From assembly GCA_009768925.2 (NCBI GenBank), contig VHIT02000036.1, forward strand, positions 62,001 to 126,000: 64,000 nucleotides of DNA, in the 5' to 3' direction. This DNA comes from Cryptosporidium bovis. Its lineage: Eukaryota > Apicomplexa > Conoidasida > Eucoccidiorida > Cryptosporidiidae. Made by a program: the position numbers and the translations under genes. Below, piece by piece: positions 39,736-52,639 of this stretch (the stretch's first letter is position 1; every line of letters begins with the position of its first letter). The notes below the pieces were generated by a model. The model searched no databases, was not told the DNA's origin, and saw only the letters and a list, made by a program, of their open reading frames with translations.

Positions 39736-41634
39736 ATGAAGGATTTATTAAATTCTGAAGATGAGTCGGATTATGTTGATGACTGCAATAAAGATTCATT
39801 AACAATAAATCAAGAATACAAGAGGAAGTACGATGAAAGAAAGAGGAAGGAGGCTCTTTCAAGGGCAAAAGAGCTCTTAAAGAATAATGAAAATCTAGAT
39901 GTTTCATCAGACAATACAAGCAGTAGTTCATCTGAAGATGAAGATTCAGACGCTGAGTTACTTGATTTTAAAACACAAAGCAAGATACTCAATACTCTCA
40001 GTTTGATCAAGGAGAAAAACCCATCTATATACGATAAATCTCATATAATTTTCCCAGAATCTGATGAAGATAATGAAGAAGATGAGAGCGAAGAAAAGAG
40101 CAAGAAAATAAAACCAATGACATACAGAGATTATGAGAGAAAAGTGCTGTTAGATTCACAGATGAACGATGATAAAATGAGTGAAAGTGAGAAAGAAAAC
40201 GAACTAAAGGGTAGTAAAAATGGTAGATCAAAAAAAATAGGCTATGACAAGGAACAAGAAGAATTAAGAAGAGCATTTATAGAAGCATCAAACAAATATG
40301 ATGATAATGATGACGATGGTTCGGAAACATTTGTTAAAAAGGACAAAACAAAGGAGGAATTAGAGGAAGAAGAGAAAAGTTTCAGAACGTTCTTGTTAAA
40401 TAATACAAATGAAAATCCAATGGAATCATTAAATAGATATTGGGGCCCGGAGGAGGAATTGGATGAGAATGAAAAATTTTTAAGAAACTATATACTAAAT
40501 CAAGAGTGGAAGGAAAATAAAATCCATACGAGGATTAATGATGCCGAAGGTGATTCACTTAGTGTTCAATTAGATTTAGATGAAATAAATGAGGAGGAAG
40601 ACGAACAGCATTTGGAACTTTCAAATGAATTTGAGAGTATATACAATTTTAGATATGAAGAACCGAATATAGGTCAACAGATTCAGGGTTACTCCAGAAA
40701 CATATCATCATTAAGAAGACAAGATGACCGTAGAAAACTGAAAAGAAAAGAGAAAAAAGAAAGGAAAGCGGAAGAAAAGCTTAGATTAAAAGAGGAAGTA
40801 AAAATGTTAAAGAGTTTAAAAAAGAAGGAAATAATGGAAAAACTTGCTAAAATCCAGAAAATATCCGGTAATAATAAAATCACAAGTGAGAGTATTGATT
40901 TGGAAGGAGAATTTGACTCTGAAAAACACGATAAATATATGGAAAATATATTTAACGATGAATATAATAACGATAGTGAGAATCTTACTTTAAATGAAAT
41001 ACTTGATGAAACAAAGGATGAACTGGATTCTTTATGCAGTGGAAAGCTTGAAGAAGATACTCATGAAGATCACGAAGAATGGTGGCAGTGTGATGTATGT
41101 TTAAAAGAAATACAACCAAATAAGAAAAAATTTGATTGTACTGTATGTGAAAACTATACTCTTTGTAAATCTTGTTGTAGAAATGTTGAGCATGAGCATC
41201 CTTTAGCTAAAGGTAGGGTCCCCGAGAGAGCATGTAATAATAATGTAAATAATGGTGCATTTAATTTTAAATATGGTAATAACGAGGATATAAACAAATT
41301 GTTGGATGAATATTACGGTCTAGATTTTGAGGATATACTTGATAGTGGTAAACTTCAGGTTAGATTCAAGTATACAAATGTAGATAAAGAGGACTACGGT
41401 CTTAAAGTCGAAGACATTCTTTCAATGGATGATAAAGAATTAAATCAACACGTATCCTTGAAGAAATTAGCACCATATAGAACCGATAAGGTAAAATTAA
41501 AATATATAAGAAATAGAAGTTTAAATAAAAATAAGAGTTTTTCAAAAATACTAAATAAAAATAGCAAGAGAAAAAGCGATAAACAAAATTCTGGAGATCA
41601 AATAAACAAGCATCGTCTCGAGGCTTACTATTAA
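39736..41634 (+). CDS. KRI1: KRI1 ribosome assembly factor with a ZZ-like zinc finger
   Basis: Kri1 is a nucleolar protein needed for 40S subunit formation and 18S rRNA processing, together with Krr1. The 632-residue protein is acidic in its N-terminal half (DESDYVDD, SSSSSEDEDSDAE). It contains the family blocks TYRDYERKVLLD, EEKSFRTFLLN..FLRNYILNQEW, and a Lys-rich coiled coil near 330-380. The C-terminal KRI1 block reads LLDEYYGLDFEDI..VRFKYTNV..DYGLKVEDILSMDDKELNQHVSLKKLAPYR. Between these, at about 450-490, WWQCDVCLKEI..FDCTVCENYTLCKSCC..HEH has the C-x2-C..C-x2-C..C-x2-C..H-x-H spacing of a ZZ-type zinc finger, which I do not recall from human Kri1. It ends with a basic tail. First ATG used. 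Confidence 0.88.
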   Translation: MKDLLNSEDESDYVDDCNKDSLTINQEYKRKYDERKRKEALSRAKELLKNNENLDVSSDNTSSSSSEDEDSDAELLDFKTQSKILNTLSLIKEKNPSIYDKSHIIFPESDEDNEEDESEEKSKKIKPMTYRDYERKVLLDSQMNDDKMSESEKENELKGSKNGRSKKIGYDKEQEELRRAFIEASNKYDDNDDDGSETFVKKDKTKEELEEEEKSFRTFLLNNTNENPMESLNRYWGPEEELDENEKFLRNYILNQEWKENKIHTRINDAEGDSLSVQLDLDEINEEEDEQHLELSNEFESIYNFRYEEPNIGQQIQGYSRNISSLRRQDDRRKLKRKEKKERKAEEKLRLKEEVKMLKSLKKKEIMEKLAKIQKISGNNKITSESIDLEGEFDSEKHDKYMENIFNDEYNNDSENLTLNEILDETKDELDSLCSGKLEEDTHEDHEEWWQCDVCLKEIQPNKKKFDCTVCENYTLCKSCCRNVEHEHPLAKGRVPERACNNNVNNGAFNFKYGNNEDINKLLDEYYGLDFEDILDSGKLQVRFKYTNVDKEDYGLKVEDILSMDDKELNQHVSLKKLAPYRTDKVKLKYIRNRSLNKNKSFSKILNKNSKRKSDKQNSGDQINKHRLEAYY

Positions 41635-41898: not shown

Positions 41899-43005
41899 TT
41901 AAATAACGTTTTCACCATTAACTGTAATTTTTGGATTAAAACCAAGTGAATCCTTAACAACAACATGTTGTGTTCCTCTTGACTGTAACCAGTTAATCAC
42001 GTTAGACTGGACCTTATTGGACATTTGCAGTTGCCTTTTTGCTATTTGCTCAACCCATCTAAATTAAGAGTTAGTAAAAAAAAGTTCAGGCACATCATAT
42101 TTGTGGTAATATTTGTTTCTCTCTTTATCTTTCGTTTCTCTTTTGCACACCACTTAATTCAATCTTAAACTTACCTTAGGTCTTTTGTGGTCAAGGCTGG
42201 AATGCCCAAAGAAGAATCAGTCATGCCAGTATTTTCAATGTCTTTTGTCAACTTTGAGAATGAAATACCACTATTCTTGCAAAATACCTATTTTGTTTAA
42301 ATTTGAGTTGAGAGAATCAAACTGATATATATAATTAAATATCAAACTTACAGCTTCAGTTATTTTATTCATCATTTCGTTCCTACTTTCGTCCGATTTA
42401 GCACACATTACAATGGGATTACCTTCATAATACATTCTGAAACACTTTCTGCTATTTTGAACAGACTCCAGTGGTGCCTCAATTTTATCTAAAGAATAAT
42501 TTCTAATGAGAGTTTCTGGATTTTTAATGTCTGTCATAAATAATAAATCATTCTTCGTTATTTTAAAGCCTAATAAATCAACATCGAAAATGTTCTTTGG
42601 ATCTAATGCCAATGATAATTCTCCAGAAATCATAACTGAGCATGCAGGTTCTCTTGTATTCGCTACAACAGGCATACTACTAACTGCTTCTTTTTGCTTA
42701 AGTCTGTTATGAGCAGCATCATTCATTCCCTTTTGATAAACTGACATTGCTGATGAAACCGCTTCCTCGTATAACTTTTCAGAGTCACTCGCATTTATTT
42801 GTGATATTCCTTCACCTATTACTGATTCTGGTTCTACATTTGAACCTATAATTTTTCTTGCAGTTTGTATTAATGTTGATATTGTTCCTGGGAGAAATTG
42901 GGGTTCAACCAATGCAAGACCTGATGTAGATCTGGTTAATCTTCCATAAACCAATCCACTTGTTGCTATCAAAGACAATAATTTAAGAAATATTAGTTTT
43001 CTCAT
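41899..43005 (-). CDS. Secreted protein with a PH-like fold, three exons (paralogue A)
   Basis: Exons on the minus strand: 43005-42352, 42287-42175 and 42058-41899; introns of 64 and 116 bases, both GT..AG. The product has 308 aa. A signal peptide is clear (MRKLIFLKLLSLIATSGLVYG). After an Ala/Ser-rich helical region comes a beta-rich stretch from about 121 (ACSVMISGELSLAL) ending KCFRMYYEGNPIVMCAKSDESRNEMMNKITEAVFCKNSG. Its last strand plus amphipathic helix look like the end of a pleckstrin-homology fold. The end reads TQHVVVKDSLGFNPKITVNGENVI. The same elements recur in the head-to-head neighbour at 43437-44708 (CFAFKYHG..VICASGKDSQSAWINAITEAWFCRNLG). Being secreted with a PH-like module suggests a role at host or vacuole membranes, but that is a guess. 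No family name is given. Confidence 0.82.
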
Positions 43006-43436: not shown

Positions 43437-44708
43437 ATGGTTAAAATGTTAAATATGAAAAAAGCACTATTTGTTATTGGCTGCATAGGTCTAAGCAACG
43501 CCTTGACTGTATTTCACTTAACTAACCCTTATGACATGTTGCAAGGCTTAAGTCATGAGAATTTGGATTTAAAAGGAAAACCTGTTTCTCATAGAACTTT
43601 AGCATTTATTCAAAAAAAAGTGAAGGGATATTCTTCAAAAAAAAATAGTGCTAGTGAAGCAATAGATGGCCTAAGTTCAGTTACCGGTGTTAACTTCAAG
43701 ACTACCCCCCTTTCACAAGAGGCATTTAAATTGCAAAGTAACACTCTTTTCTCCCAAGCTGAAAATAAAAGAAAAGTAGCCAAGTATTTACAAGAGCAAA
43801 GTGGAATGACTGAGAGTGAGCTTACAAAAGTTGAAGTTGATGCAAATAAGAGTCCTGAAAAGGAAGCTGCTATAACAAATATGAAAAGAGCGAAAGTTCT
43901 ATTGGCTCAGGCGTATATACTAGAAGGTAAGTATCACATATATGAATATACCTCTTTTTTCAAACAATTACAAACAAATCTTTAAATTGAATCATTTTAG
44001 AGGAAGCCAAAAGAATGCAATTGGCCGCAGAAAGGAGTGGAAACAATGAAAGTTTTAAATGTGATATTCTTAAAATTGGTCCTCTTGCTTTCGCACCAAA
44101 TAGTGAAGAGATAACAGATATAATGGACGGTTCTTTAGGTTTATTAAACGGAAATATGTTATCTATTTACTACAATTCAGTAAGTTTGTTATTTTAATAT
44201 GAACGTTTCAAATAACCATTATTTCAGATTCCAAAAGAGTCATTTTCATTAGAAAGCATTGAAATGCCAGTTTACAATGTAGATGCAGCTCCGGGGTGTT
44301 TCGCATTCAAGTATCATGGTACTGAACAGGTGATTTGTGCATCAGGAAAGGACAGTCAATCTGCCTGGATCAATGCAATTACTGAAGCATGGTTTTGTAG
44401 AAATTTAGGTCTTGCAGGAACATTACCAACTACTAATAAGTCTCAAGGTAAGTCTATCGATTAAAAAATAGGTGCGAGTAATCAAATTTTTAATTGATTT
44501 TGTAGATAAAGAAAAAACCGAAGAAAATAAGGAAGGGGATGATGAAGAGGATGATGATAATGAAGACGAGGAAAATGAGAATAGTGAGGATGAGAAGAAA
44601 GAAGCGAAGAGTACAGAAAATAAAAAACCAACAAGATATACGAGATCATCAGTAAAAACCTTTACTGTCGAGTTGGAGGATGGCAAACCAAAAATAACAC
44701 AGAATTAA
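43437..44708 (+). CDS. Secreted protein with a PH-like fold, four exons (paralogue B)
   Basis: Exons: 43437-43926, 44001-44179, 44228-44447 and 44506-44708; introns of 74, 48 and 58 bases, all GT..AG and in frame, giving 363 aa. Three in-frame ATGs are close together (MVKMLNMKKALFVIGCIGLSNA); all leave a signal peptide. Residues about 25-160 are helical and Lys/Glu-rich. A beta region runs from about 178 (FKCDILKIGPLAFAP) and ends in CFAFKYHGTEQVICASGKDSQSAWINAITEAWFCRNLG, matching the neighbour on the other strand residue for residue at several key places. A very acidic run (EEDDDNEDEENENSEDE) precedes the basic KPTRYTRSSVKTFTVELEDGKPKI tail. One intron boundary differs from the neighbour, so the pair is old. 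Function unknown. Confidence 0.82.
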
Positions 44709-45088: not shown

Positions 45089-45736
45089 CTATTCACTTTC
45101 ATCAGTTCCTATTTTCATATTTGCTAATTGTTGTAAAGCAATCGCATCCGAAATGGACATACTGCCAAATCTCACAGGAGTTATTGAACTAGATCCTTGC
45201 CTTCTATATGAATCAGAAAAATCGTAACTTGTTTCGGGGTTACCTCTATGATTAGTAATATCTGTTTTAGATTTCCTTTCAAGTGTTATACTTCCACTTT
45301 CATCATAACTCGTTAAATCATTTTCCTGTTTAACTCCCTTCCTAAATTTGGATACGGCAGAAAGCTGAGCTCTTATATGTTGCAGCGTAACTCTCCTTCT
45401 AGATACCATAGCAGCTAAACGAGCTCTTTGTTTGTAAGCATCAACAACTTCTTCCTTCGAGTGTGATAGTGATTGTTGTCTAATTAAATAAGAACGCTCT
45501 ATTGCCCCTTTTAAACCACCCGAATTACTAAATGTCAAAGATCTAAGCAACGATCCTGTGTTTTGGTGGATTATTTGTCTTGTTTCCTCAGGAAGTTCTG
45601 ATTCATCGAATTCAATGTTGGCTTTAAAAGGTGCCAATTTTTCCGATAATTCATCACCAGAAGAAAGAGAAGCCGTTCTAGAGGAATCGTTTACAAATCT
45701 ACTCTCCTCTAAAGGTACATCTTTACCATTATTCAT
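45089..45736 (-). CDS. Orphan 215-residue protein
   Basis: I do not recognise this protein. The frame is complete with an ATG (MNNGKDVPLEESRF) and reasonable composition. It has no signal peptide or membrane helix. The first 60 residues are acidic/Ser-rich. Residues 75-135 look like one basic amphipathic helix pair (AIERSYLIRQQSLSH..VDAYKQRARLAAMVSRRRVTLQHIRAQLSAVSKFR), which could be a coiled coil or RNA-binding helix. The tail is Ser-rich (SYDFSDSYRRQGSSSITPVRFGSMSISDAIALQQLA). It sits next to the U3 gene on the same strand. No function is proposed. Confidence 0.7.
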   Translation of the reverse strand: MNNGKDVPLEESRFVNDSSRTASLSSGDELSEKLAPFKANIEFDESELPEETRQIIHQNTGSLLRSLTFSNSGGLKGAIERSYLIRQQSLSHSKEEVVDAYKQRARLAAMVSRRRVTLQHIRAQLSAVSKFRKGVKQENDLTSYDESGSITLERKSKTDITNHRGNPETSYDFSDSYRRQGSSSITPVRFGSMSISDAIALQQLANMKIGTDESE

Positions 45737-46192
45737 TTACGTTGATTTATATCTATTATTACACAATTAATACAAACTAACTTTTAACTGTATCTACAAA
45801 TCACTTATTCAAAAACATGTAGAAAAAAAAGTGACGAATTCAGTACAGTATTTCTGCCTTTCAATGCATTCAACAGCTTCACGGATTTTCACTTGCCACT
45901 TAACCTTTTCTTTGTTCAAGAAACAGTGATTAGCAGCAAAACACCACCTCTGAGCTGTCGCACTTCAATAATACCGTGCTCACACGCAACACCTTCAGTA
46001 ATCGAATCACTATCAAAAGCCTCGAATCCGACCGAACACCGCGCCACAGGTAGCCAGGGTACCAGCACAAGTCATTTCGGTATCCCAAGCGGCGCCGGCG
46101 CCCGCACCAGATATCTACAACAAACGCGCCAAGACAGTACAAAATCAAACAACAAAACCAAAAGGGGTTAAGATAGCCGTTCAGAATCATCC
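45737..46192. other. G+C-rich non-coding stretch downstream of the U3 gene
   Basis: From about 45890 to 46140 the sequence is clearly richer in G+C than the window average and has no sensible frame. It holds the palindrome GGCGCCGGCGCC (46091-46102) and a local stem-rich part around 46040-46080. It could be an extension of the U3 transcript, a second RNA gene, or a 5' leader of the orphan gene. I cannot choose between them. Confidence 0.45.
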
Positions 46193-46450
46193 ACACCGAT
46201 CAGAGTCCAACCCGAGGATCTCTGTAGGGTCATCAATACCGTGAAACAACACATAATCGTTATGACAGAGAGACACGCAGCCCGAGGACGCGAATCTACA
46301 ACTGCACATAAGACTGGGTGTGACAGGCCAAGCTTCCCGTTTCCGGTGAGATGGATAACTCATCTTCACGGACAGAGGTGTTGTCAAGAGCTGTAGCCCA
46401 ATACGTTTCGGATTCACTATAGAAATGATCCCGTTCGAGTACAGTCGACG
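46193..46450 (-). ncRNA. U3: U3 small nucleolar RNA (SSU processome), ends approximate
   Basis: U3 guides the first cuts of the pre-rRNA and folding of 18S rRNA. On the minus strand GGGATCATTTCTATAGT (46432-46416) is identical to eukaryotic U3 box A, 17 of 17. Before it, GACTGTACT (46446-46438) resembles the 5'-end sequence GACTATACT of human U3. CGTGAAG (46370-46364) matches box B, and ATTGATGACCC, with TGATGA at 46235-46230, matches box C. CTGA at 46203-46200 is a candidate box D, though TTCTGAACGG just beyond is an alternative. Distances are shorter than in human U3 (217 nt) but the order A, B, C, D is kept. The 5' end is placed a few bases before GACTG; the 3' end could lie at 46160-46200. 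Fibrillarin, a core U3 protein, is encoded 0.7 kb away. Confidence 0.82.
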
Positions 46451-47108
46451 GCGTGTCTAACCAACCGGAATTACAACTAGGTAACTTAACACATTTCTAT
46501 GATGGTTCTCAAATAACCACAATACGCATAGCAGGTACCGCTGACAAACAAAACAGAGCAACAAGCAAGGCGCCTAATTCTAAATGCACGTCTTTTAAAT
46601 AGAAAAGGTCAAGGAGAAAAGAAGCCGCTTAATACCTTGAAAAAAAGTCAATATTCGTGCTCATTCAAAAAATTATCGAGATATGATTATTAATATTTCA
46701 GTAACTCGCTGAAATGCTTGGCTTTTCTATTTCCTATTGCGACATTGACTATCAATGAGCCAAAATAACTATTATTTGACTTTTAATCACTTGAAAATTT
46801 GTGATGTGGTACGTACTTTTACATGAAAAACTGAAAATAAAATAATAAAATGTATTTTATTGTCCCACTGTCACTATGTACATTTATTTTTACTTTTCTA
46901 TATAAACTTTATAAATTTAATTTCTCATTTTGACTCCAGTCAAATTTACAGCAGTCTCATAAGAATAAATGAACGTGTTAACTTGTCAATTTGGTATTGT
47001 CTATTTAGTTTTTTTTTTTTACACTTGTCCATCTTTGTTTTGTATAACTTTATATAATCTATTTATTTGTTATATTGTTATAACTGTTTCATTATAGTGG
47101 ATATAATA
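46451..47108. other. Upstream flank of U3 and 3' flank of fibrillarin
   Basis: The promoter of the U3 gene must lie here (minus direction, from 46450 up). A G+C-richer part at about 46440-46560 includes GGCGTGTCTAACCAACCGG and GCAGGTACCGC. No coding frame seen. The far part is A+T-rich. Confidence 0.45.
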
Positions 47109-48005
47109 TTACTCTTTCTTTTTAATCGGACGGTAAACGCCAATTACAACAGCATGGTCTCTGTGATAAGGCTCTAAAGTTAGTTGCTCTTTAGGTTTAC
47201 ATTTTTCAGCTCTCAATTTATCAACTTCAGAAGCAAATACAGCTTCAGGCTTAGCAGTTGAATCTACGCAACTAGCCTTAATTGATATAATAAAATAGCC
47301 ATTATTCTTTAAGAAAAGGCCTGCATTCAAGGCAACAATACGAGCTTGATCTGGTTGAGCAACGTCAGAGAAGATGACATCTACCATGGGAACAAGCATT
47401 CTATATTTTTGAGGCGTCCTAGCGTCCTCAACGATAGGAACAATATTTTGTCGTCTTTTTGCCATATCTGTTAAGTCTCTACCAGATCTGTGACTAAATT
47501 CTACTGCATAAACACTTCCTTCTGGGCCAACCATATCAGAGACATGGGAAACTGTGGTGCCATTGGCAGCTCCCAAATATAAGACTTTAGCACCAGGTTT
47601 AATCGGCATATTAGCAACACCACCAATAATAGTAGCTCCTAATTTTGATCTAAAAGGATTCCATACTCTATACTCTATCTTTTCATTAGTCTCTGAGTTA
47701 ACCGATTCTATTCTTTTTTCACCATAGACAGAAACCCCAGGCACCATATTTTTTGTTACAAGAGCATCGCTCTTTCCTTTTGCCATAAATACGCCCTCGT
47801 GTCTATGAGGAACTATTACTACCTTGGAACCACCCTTCATCCCTACTCCTTTACCTCCTTTACCTCCTCTTCCTCCTCTTCCACCTCTTCCTCCTGGGCT
47901 CCTTCCTCCACCTCTACCTCCACCTGGGCTCCTTCCACCTCCACCTGGGCTCCTTCCTCCACCTCCTCTTCCTCTACCTCCAAACGGACTTCCTCTAGAG
48001 CTCAT
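47109..48005 (-). CDS. NOP1: Fibrillarin (Nop1), box C/D snoRNP methyltransferase
   Basis: Fibrillarin is the 2'-O-methyltransferase of box C/D snoRNPs, also present in the U3 snoRNP. The 298-residue protein has a Gly/Arg/Ser/Pro GAR domain (1-55, repeated GGRSPGG) and the methyltransferase fold. Motif I is [20 protein letters not shown]. It continues with [54 protein letters not shown], and [19 protein letters not shown]. All catalytic parts are intact. The GAR part is encoded by short tandem repeats (CCTCCACCTGGGCTCCTTC class, 47880-47990). Divergent from the USP gene at 48798. Start ATG clear, no introns. Confidence 0.97.
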
Positions 48006-51880: not shown

Positions 51881-52639
51881 TTAGCACATTCTATCAATCA
51901 ATTTATTGATAAGATGTTCTCTGTTGCCACAGTCACCACCTCTTGCTTCTGTGAATCTAGTTGTTTTGTGAACAAAACCACCTCTTGGAGAGGAGAGCTT
52001 AAATGGCCAAAGTGAAGATGAGACAGCTTTAAATTGTTCACCACAAAAAAACAATTCACGAACCATTCCTTCAATTCCAAAAACACCCTTTGACGAGAGT
52101 TTTTCTTGGATCATTCTATTGTCTTGGATTTTAATTCTCTGGTAACATCCCTTTTTTCCAACCTTGAAGTAGCCTCTTTTATACAACAATTTTCTAATCA
52201 TTGAGATAGAAGGGTAACCATAAGCTACATACGGATCAATAACTTTAAGCATTTCCGTTGTTGCTTTGTTTACTGGTAAAAATACACCATTATTTATCTG
52301 TCTCAATCTAAATAGCTGCAAAATTTTCCTTACTTTTGGGCAAAGTTTATTTATACCTTTTAGACGTATAACAAAGACGACCTTAGCCTCTGGGTCGCGA
52401 TAAAGACCTCTATTTTGCTTTGCTTGTCTTTTCAAGTCAATAATTGAACGTACATGTTCTTTATATTGTTTTTGTAACTTTAAAGATTCAACCTTTGCTT
52501 CTTTACGAAGTCTACGCATTTCAGTGCGTTTTGTTTTCATTTCAGAAATAAATTTACTCATCATCTCCTTGTTGCGTTCCTCCTTAAGTTTTTTAGACTC
52601 GCTTGGAGGAACTTTCTTAACTACAAATCTTGAAGACAT
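51881..52639 (-). CDS. RPL7: 60S ribosomal protein L7 (uL30)
   Basis: Component of the large ribosomal subunit. The 252-residue protein begins with a basic eukaryote-specific extension of about 80 residues (KEERNKEMMSKF..MRRLRKEAKVE). It then has the uL30 core: KVVFVIRLKGINKLCPKVRKILQLFRLRQINNGVFLPVNKATTEML, YVAYGYPSISMIRKLLYKRGY, and the tail RGGDCGNREHLINKLIDRMC. Every mark of eukaryotic L7 is present and length matches. The gene has no intron that I can see. RPS15A follows 1 kb to the right on the same strand. Confidence 0.97.
   Translation of the reverse strand: MSSRFVVKKVPPSESKKLKEERNKEMMSKFISEMKTKRTEMRRLRKEAKVESLKLQKQYKEHVRSIIDLKRQAKQNRGLYRDPEAKVVFVIRLKGINKLCPKVRKILQLFRLRQINNGVFLPVNKATTEMLKVIDPYVAYGYPSISMIRKLLYKRGYFKVGKKGCYQRIKIQDNRMIQEKLSSKGVFGIEGMVRELFFCGEQFKAVSSSLWPFKLSSPRGGFVHKTTRFTEARGGDCGNREHLINKLIDRMC

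Follow-up and report, generated by a model that had tools for sequence, protein, structure and literature searches.

The minus strand of the window, which is the whole 64,000-nucleotide stretch of Cryptosporidium bovis DNA analysed here, carries the gene of the U3 small nucleolar RNA (snoRNA), and our account of it, to which we give a probability of about 0.85 as a whole, is that of an independent U3 gene, found in one copy, with a PSE-like promoter element at -57 and with transcription most likely by RNA polymerase II (Pol II), followed by read-through and trimming. The identification of 46448-46175 as the U3 snoRNA gene of Cryptosporidium is practically certain. When the whole window was searched by cmscan, the single match at or above the gathering score was that of RF01848 (ACEA_U3) at this locus, with 105.9 bits against a gathering cut-off of 55 and an E value of 4.6e-20, and the match covered model positions 1-209 of 209 and was not cut off. 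The original prediction had put a U3 gene on this strand, as the full-length match confirms, and had proposed a check with the general U3 model, RF00012, which also gave a minus-strand match at the locus with 46.7 bits against a cut-off of 34, that of RF01848 being far stronger. Four of the five listed Rfam matches around U3 were weak, far under their own gathering scores. In genome-wide searches of the 9,064,136-base assembly, the U3 locus was the one place found with RF00012 (48 of 102 first-look candidates scored) and the one place found with RF01848 (85 of 244 scored), and the stretch 45900-46600 was not found again elsewhere in the 9.06 Mb. The gene and its boxes are as follows.

46175-46448, minus strand: U3 snoRNA gene, 274 nt, with covariance-model ends that are good to a few nt
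46433-46440, minus strand: box A' region, ACTCGAAC, aligned to the model consensus ACUCgaAC
46416-46432, minus strand: box A, GGGATCATTTCTATAGT, 17 of 17 bases exact
46359-46369, minus strand: box C' region, GTGAAGATGAG, aligned to the consensus GUGAUGAUGA, a weaker fit
46332-46338, minus strand: probable box B, GGGAAGC, from the model alignment, weak
46228-46236, minus strand: box C, TTGATGACC, placed by the RF01848 model
46181-46186, minus strand: box D, TTCTGA, placed by the RF01848 model

Box A was the sole match of its kind in the window, even with up to three mismatches allowed; at that tolerance, a mean of 0.27 matches was expected and at least one occurred in 23 of 100 shuffles, and the real match has no mismatches. 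The exact 17-base box A that had been claimed from the letters was found at 46432-46416 as described, and a 22-base box A pattern had no match in the genome-contig and viral-contig collections. As placed by the model, boxes C and D are present and close the 3' domain of U3, and boxes B and C' align in the expected order with degenerate sequences; the names A', C' and B for the aligned segments are those that we presume to apply. The original prediction had also put its boxes in order, but its placement of box D and the tail, which it had flagged as uncertain, was wrong. It had ended the gene at 46193 and given it a span of 258 nt, whereas the model box D at 46186-46181 lies outside that interval, the 3' end is at about 46175 and the gene is 274 nt long. 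A decoy CTCTGA at 46205-46200 fits the earlier end at 46193 and was probably the box D of that reading.

The minimum-energy fold of the single U3 sequence was not better than that of its shuffles (z of -0.51, with 59 of 200 shuffles folding equally well or better, and z of -0.24 in a second run), and in the RF01848 alignment several pairs of the second 5' hairpin of U3 are non-standard. Since the fold energy does not rise above that of the shuffles, the identity rests on the covariance model and the boxes. A pseudogene or a chance match would agree with this fold energy and with the weakness of boxes B and C', but we consider such an explanation extremely improbable in view of the full-length model match with its E value of 4.6e-20, of the finding of no other U3 copy and of a promoter element at the right spacing.

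The element in question was recognized by comparison with the spliceosomal RNA genes U1, U2, U4, U5 and U6, each of which was found once in the genome (lower bounds, with 41-48 first-look candidates scored per search). The upstream elements, with distances counted from the covariance-modelled 5' ends, are as follows.

46485-46505, minus strand: PSE-like element of U3, CCATCATAGAAATGTGTTAAG, starting at -57, leave-one-out matrix score 20.2
U1, upstream element at -54: CCATCATTAAATCGTGTCGAAT
U2, upstream element at -56: CCATCACAAAATCGTATTTGAA
U3, upstream element at -57: CCATCATAGAAATGTGTTAAGT
U4, upstream element at -56: CCATCATAGACTCGTGTTAAGG
U5, upstream element at -55: CCATCATAGTGGCGTGTTAGGA
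U6, upstream element at -60, a weak form: ACGTCATACAGAAGTATTTGAA

With a matrix made from U1, U2, U4 and U5, and so without U3, the U3 site scored 20.2 and ranked first among about 528,000 positions, the background being made up of the window and 20 further stretches of 10 kb, on both strands. When U1, U4 or U5 was left out in turn, no background site except that of U3 itself reached the score of the gene left out, and when U2 was left out, the site of U3 and three others did so. The U6 site was weak, being equalled by 85 background sites when scored with a five-gene matrix. A strict pattern, CCATCAYNNNNNNGTRTY, had 12 matches in the genome, five of which were those of U1-U5, with five matches for the reversed-pattern control; because this pattern was drawn with U3 in view, the leave-one-out matrix is the fairer test. 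The other seven matches lie away from known RNA genes, which counts against our main account. They were considered as candidates for new RNA genes and were taken as chance, because four of the seven lie inside long open frames, in none does the GC of any 50-base bin exceed 0.46 over the 700 bases counted from the element, and the reversed control gave as many as five. Three of them (L022, L026 and L027) lie outside long frames, and two of these (L026 and L027) have AATTAATGCCGG nearby, perhaps an ordinary protein-gene promoter motif. Judged from the DNA, U3 very probably has its promoter element in common with the snRNA genes, and this element has the look of the organism's own promoter element of the snRNA type. 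A 2007 study stated, in the part available, that prediction of PSE or DSE elements was not yet possible for apicomplexan MRP-RNA genes, including those of Cryptosporidium (PMC1796607), and there was no published description of the Cryptosporidium element, or of the 3' box or the tract described below, among the literature matches listed.

Downstream of the genes, U1, U2, U4 and U5 have a 3' box in common, AAAYCAATGTATC, which starts 6, 23, 9 and 8 nt past the modelled end, respectively. In leave-one-out scoring of these four genes in the same order, 0, 0, 2 and 0 of 527,454 background positions were as good. The best 3' box scores at U3 and U6 were 1.8 and 6.3, respectively, against 17.3-19.6 in the four genes, indicating that the box is absent at U3 by matrix score and, among U1-U5, is missing only there. 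The pattern AAYCAATGTATC had seven matches in the genome, four of them at U1, U2, U4 and U5, with five for the reversed control; the three matches elsewhere were set aside, having neither a PSE-like site in the preceding 500 bases nor a comparable tract.

What U3 does have in common with the other four genes is a stretch poor in A and rich in G+C on the sense strand.

45932-46155, minus strand: G+C-rich, A-poor tract downstream of U3
46154-46163, minus strand: two T4 runs, about 12-22 nt past the U3 gene

At +20 to +220, the fractions of A and GC were 0.125 and 0.53 for U1, 0.14 and 0.595 for U2, 0.15 and 0.52 for U3, 0.09 and 0.56 for U4, and 0.06 and 0.53 for U5, so that the tract of U3 is the weakest of the five, whereas U6, with 0.29 and 0.26, has no tract. 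The missing 3' box and this weakest tract at U3 also count against our main account. With a cut-off of A at most 0.15 and GC at least 0.50, which was set after the profiles had been seen and which U3 just passes, 220 of 519,642 background 200-base windows passed, all of them in the given window and none in the 20 other stretches; 118 of these covered the U3 tract together with the 3' part of its gene, and 102 lay around the Gly/Arg-coding start of the fibrillarin gene, on the other strand. The mean of U1-U5 was 0.09-0.10 A and 0.56-0.59 GC at +50 to +200, and 0.18 A and 0.51 GC at +200 to +250; the window as a whole has about 30% GC. The G+C-rich island noted in the original prediction is thus real and is bigger than U3, reaching over about 45.9-46.6 kb, since the tract extends it beyond the gene. 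In the 300 bases downstream, AATAAA or ATTAAA occurred 0 times for U1, U2, U3 and U5 and once for U4; low A content alone would give such counts, so that avoidance of poly(A) signals is a weak explanation for the existence of the tracts.

The tract 45932-46155 could also be a separate RNA gene, or a promoter part of the gene for a 215-aa protein (45089-45736), that is unrelated to U3, and its location 200-440 bases upstream of the ATG of that gene on the same strand would suit the latter. This is rather improbable, since no Rfam match was obtained on the tract at E values up to 5, the five tracts did not fold clearly better than their shuffles (z of -1.46 to 0.02) and were thus not clearly structured, and a similar tract lies behind each of U1, U2, U4 and U5. 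U4 and U5, in particular, are neighbours that converge, with about 670 bases between them (C31:11117-12040) and with their tracts facing each other, which means that these tracts are no protein gene's promoter. We therefore prefer to regard the tract as belonging to U3, where it is probably a transcribed read-through zone.

To compare U3 with genes of RNA polymerase III (Pol III), we read the downstream sequences of the best-scoring 20 of the 45 tRNA gene matches in the genome. The first T run was T5 or T6 within 60 nt in 18 of the 20, starting within 8 nt in 16 of those; it was T4 in none, and the remaining two had no T run of four or more within 60 nt. At U3, there is no run of T5 or longer just downstream, and no T run longer than T4 inside the gene. 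None of the 20 tRNA genes passed the tract cut-off (A 0.18-0.41, GC 0.24-0.48; the downstream stretch of one locus, L051, contains another tRNA gene), and GC was raised after the tRNA genes too, at 0.48 in the first 50 bases and 0.27 at +250 to +300. It is conceivable that the U3 gene is real and yet transcribed by Pol III, with its 3' end within the T4 runs at 46163-46154. The position of these runs about 12-22 nt downstream, with no longer run inside the gene, would allow this, the snRNA 3' box is missing at U3, and U6, presumably a Pol III gene, has the weak form of the same upstream element at -60, so that the polymerase cannot be told from the element by itself. Nevertheless, we consider transcription by Pol III unlikely, as the tRNA genes have T5 or T6 where U3 has T4, and as the A-poor tract lies behind U1-U5, including U3, and not behind U6 or the 20 tRNA genes. 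The comparison of T runs speaks against Pol III without proving Pol II. Because U3 lacks a T run of the Pol III kind and has a tract as at U1, U2, U4 and U5, it shows indirect signs of Pol II, and we consider it likely, judging from the sequence, that U3 is transcribed by Pol II.

Under our main account, the PSE-like element at -57 would drive U3 as an independent gene, most likely with Pol II, and the transcript would probably continue into the A-poor tract, some 200-250 nt beyond the mature end. As the 3' box of U1, U2, U4 and U5 is absent at U3, we propose that the 3' end probably arises when the transcript is trimmed as far as the box C/D core. The resulting RNA would bind fibrillarin, and its boxes A' and A would pair with pre-rRNA and guide 18S maturation. 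The composition of the tracts may mark transcription past the mature end, which would be longer after Pol II-type than after Pol III genes. More broadly and only tentatively, at somewhat less than even odds, U1-U5 including U3 may form one Pol II class with an undescribed PSE and a strand-oriented, A-depleted and G+C-raised footprint of about 200 nt that marks polymerase run-on. If this is true, the extent of non-polyadenylated transcription could be read from base composition alone, being short behind Pol III genes and long behind Pol II small-RNA genes.

Upstream of U3 lies the gene of its presumed protein partner.

47109-48005, minus strand: fibrillarin gene (PF01269, E value 4.3e-105), a neighbour outside the U3 gene

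Both genes are on the minus strand, with fibrillarin upstream and 660 bases from its stop codon to the 5' end of U3, in agreement with the distance of about 0.7 kb given in the original prediction. The 215-aa neighbour at 45089-45736 had 11 matches including its own; the seven named ones are all from Cryptosporidium, with 82% identity in C. ryanae and 48-65% in the others, which points to a Cryptosporidium near C. ryanae. In C. andersoni, the relatives of fibrillarin and of the 215-aa protein are apparently on the same contig, which suggests that the neighbourhood is old in the genus. Several genes for making ribosomes are near one another here, since a span of 13 kb contains, besides U3 and fibrillarin, a KRI1-like gene for ribosome biogenesis (39736-41634) and the gene of a ribosomal protein with L30/L7e domains (51881-52639). 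Two small genes that lie on different strands, at 42271-43005 and 43437-43985, encode proteins with signal-peptide-like starts as judged by eye, and neither product had a Pfam match; the protein of 42271-43005 had 10 matches including its own, six of them named, all from Cryptosporidium, with relatives annotated as PH domain-like or as secreted protein.

U3 belongs to the conserved core of ribosome assembly and helps to build the small ribosomal subunit, its boxes A' and A pairing with pre-rRNA and guiding 18S processing. According to one paper, which cites Marz and Stadler 2009, U3 is present in all eukaryotes examined (PMC3879963). For C. parvum, the accessible text of a review lists five C/D snoRNAs, none of them named U3 (PMC12246861), and the T2T genome paper, in the sections available, describes an Infernal run and an annotation that includes snRNA and snoRNA genes (PMC12179316), so that the U3 gene of C. 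parvum has quite possibly been annotated before. One of the C/D snoRNAs in that review text, cgd6_3219 (PMC12246861), might be the C. parvum counterpart of the present U3; cgd6_3220, which is numbered next to it, is described in the part seen of another source as a GTPase, not fibrillarin (PMC2661377). In C. bovis, the U3 gene can be annotated with better ends. What this study adds beyond U3 itself is the common snRNA-type element, the 3' box that U3 is missing and the composition footprint: the element and the 3' box offer a starting point for studying how Cryptosporidium small nuclear RNAs are begun and ended, and the downstream tracts, as a simple mark in the genome, can be tested with existing RNA data.

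As a member of its family, the present U3 is an ordinary one. It has in common with RF01848, which is in clan CL00100 with RF00012, the exact box A, the box order and the full model length, and it scores nearly twice the gathering score; it differs in being 274 nt long against 209 model positions, boxes B and C being separated by a long insertion that has a low posterior probability. Yeast U3 has an intron near box A, and in the RF01848 alignment no insertion was found near box A here, giving no sign of an intron there. The genes of snRNA type with a PSE are those of the SNAPc-dependent class in animals and the USE genes in plants. With these, the Cryptosporidium genes agree in having one upstream element near -55, at U1-U5 and weakly at U6, and a 3' box 6-23 nt past U1, U2, U4 and U5, but the element has a sequence of its own, and U3 is without the 3' box. 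Plant U3 genes are transcribed by Pol III from an upstream element plus a TATA box; the present gene resembles them in having an upstream element in common with snRNA genes, and it differs from them in that no run of T5 or longer lies just downstream and that its tract is like those of the other U1-U5 genes.
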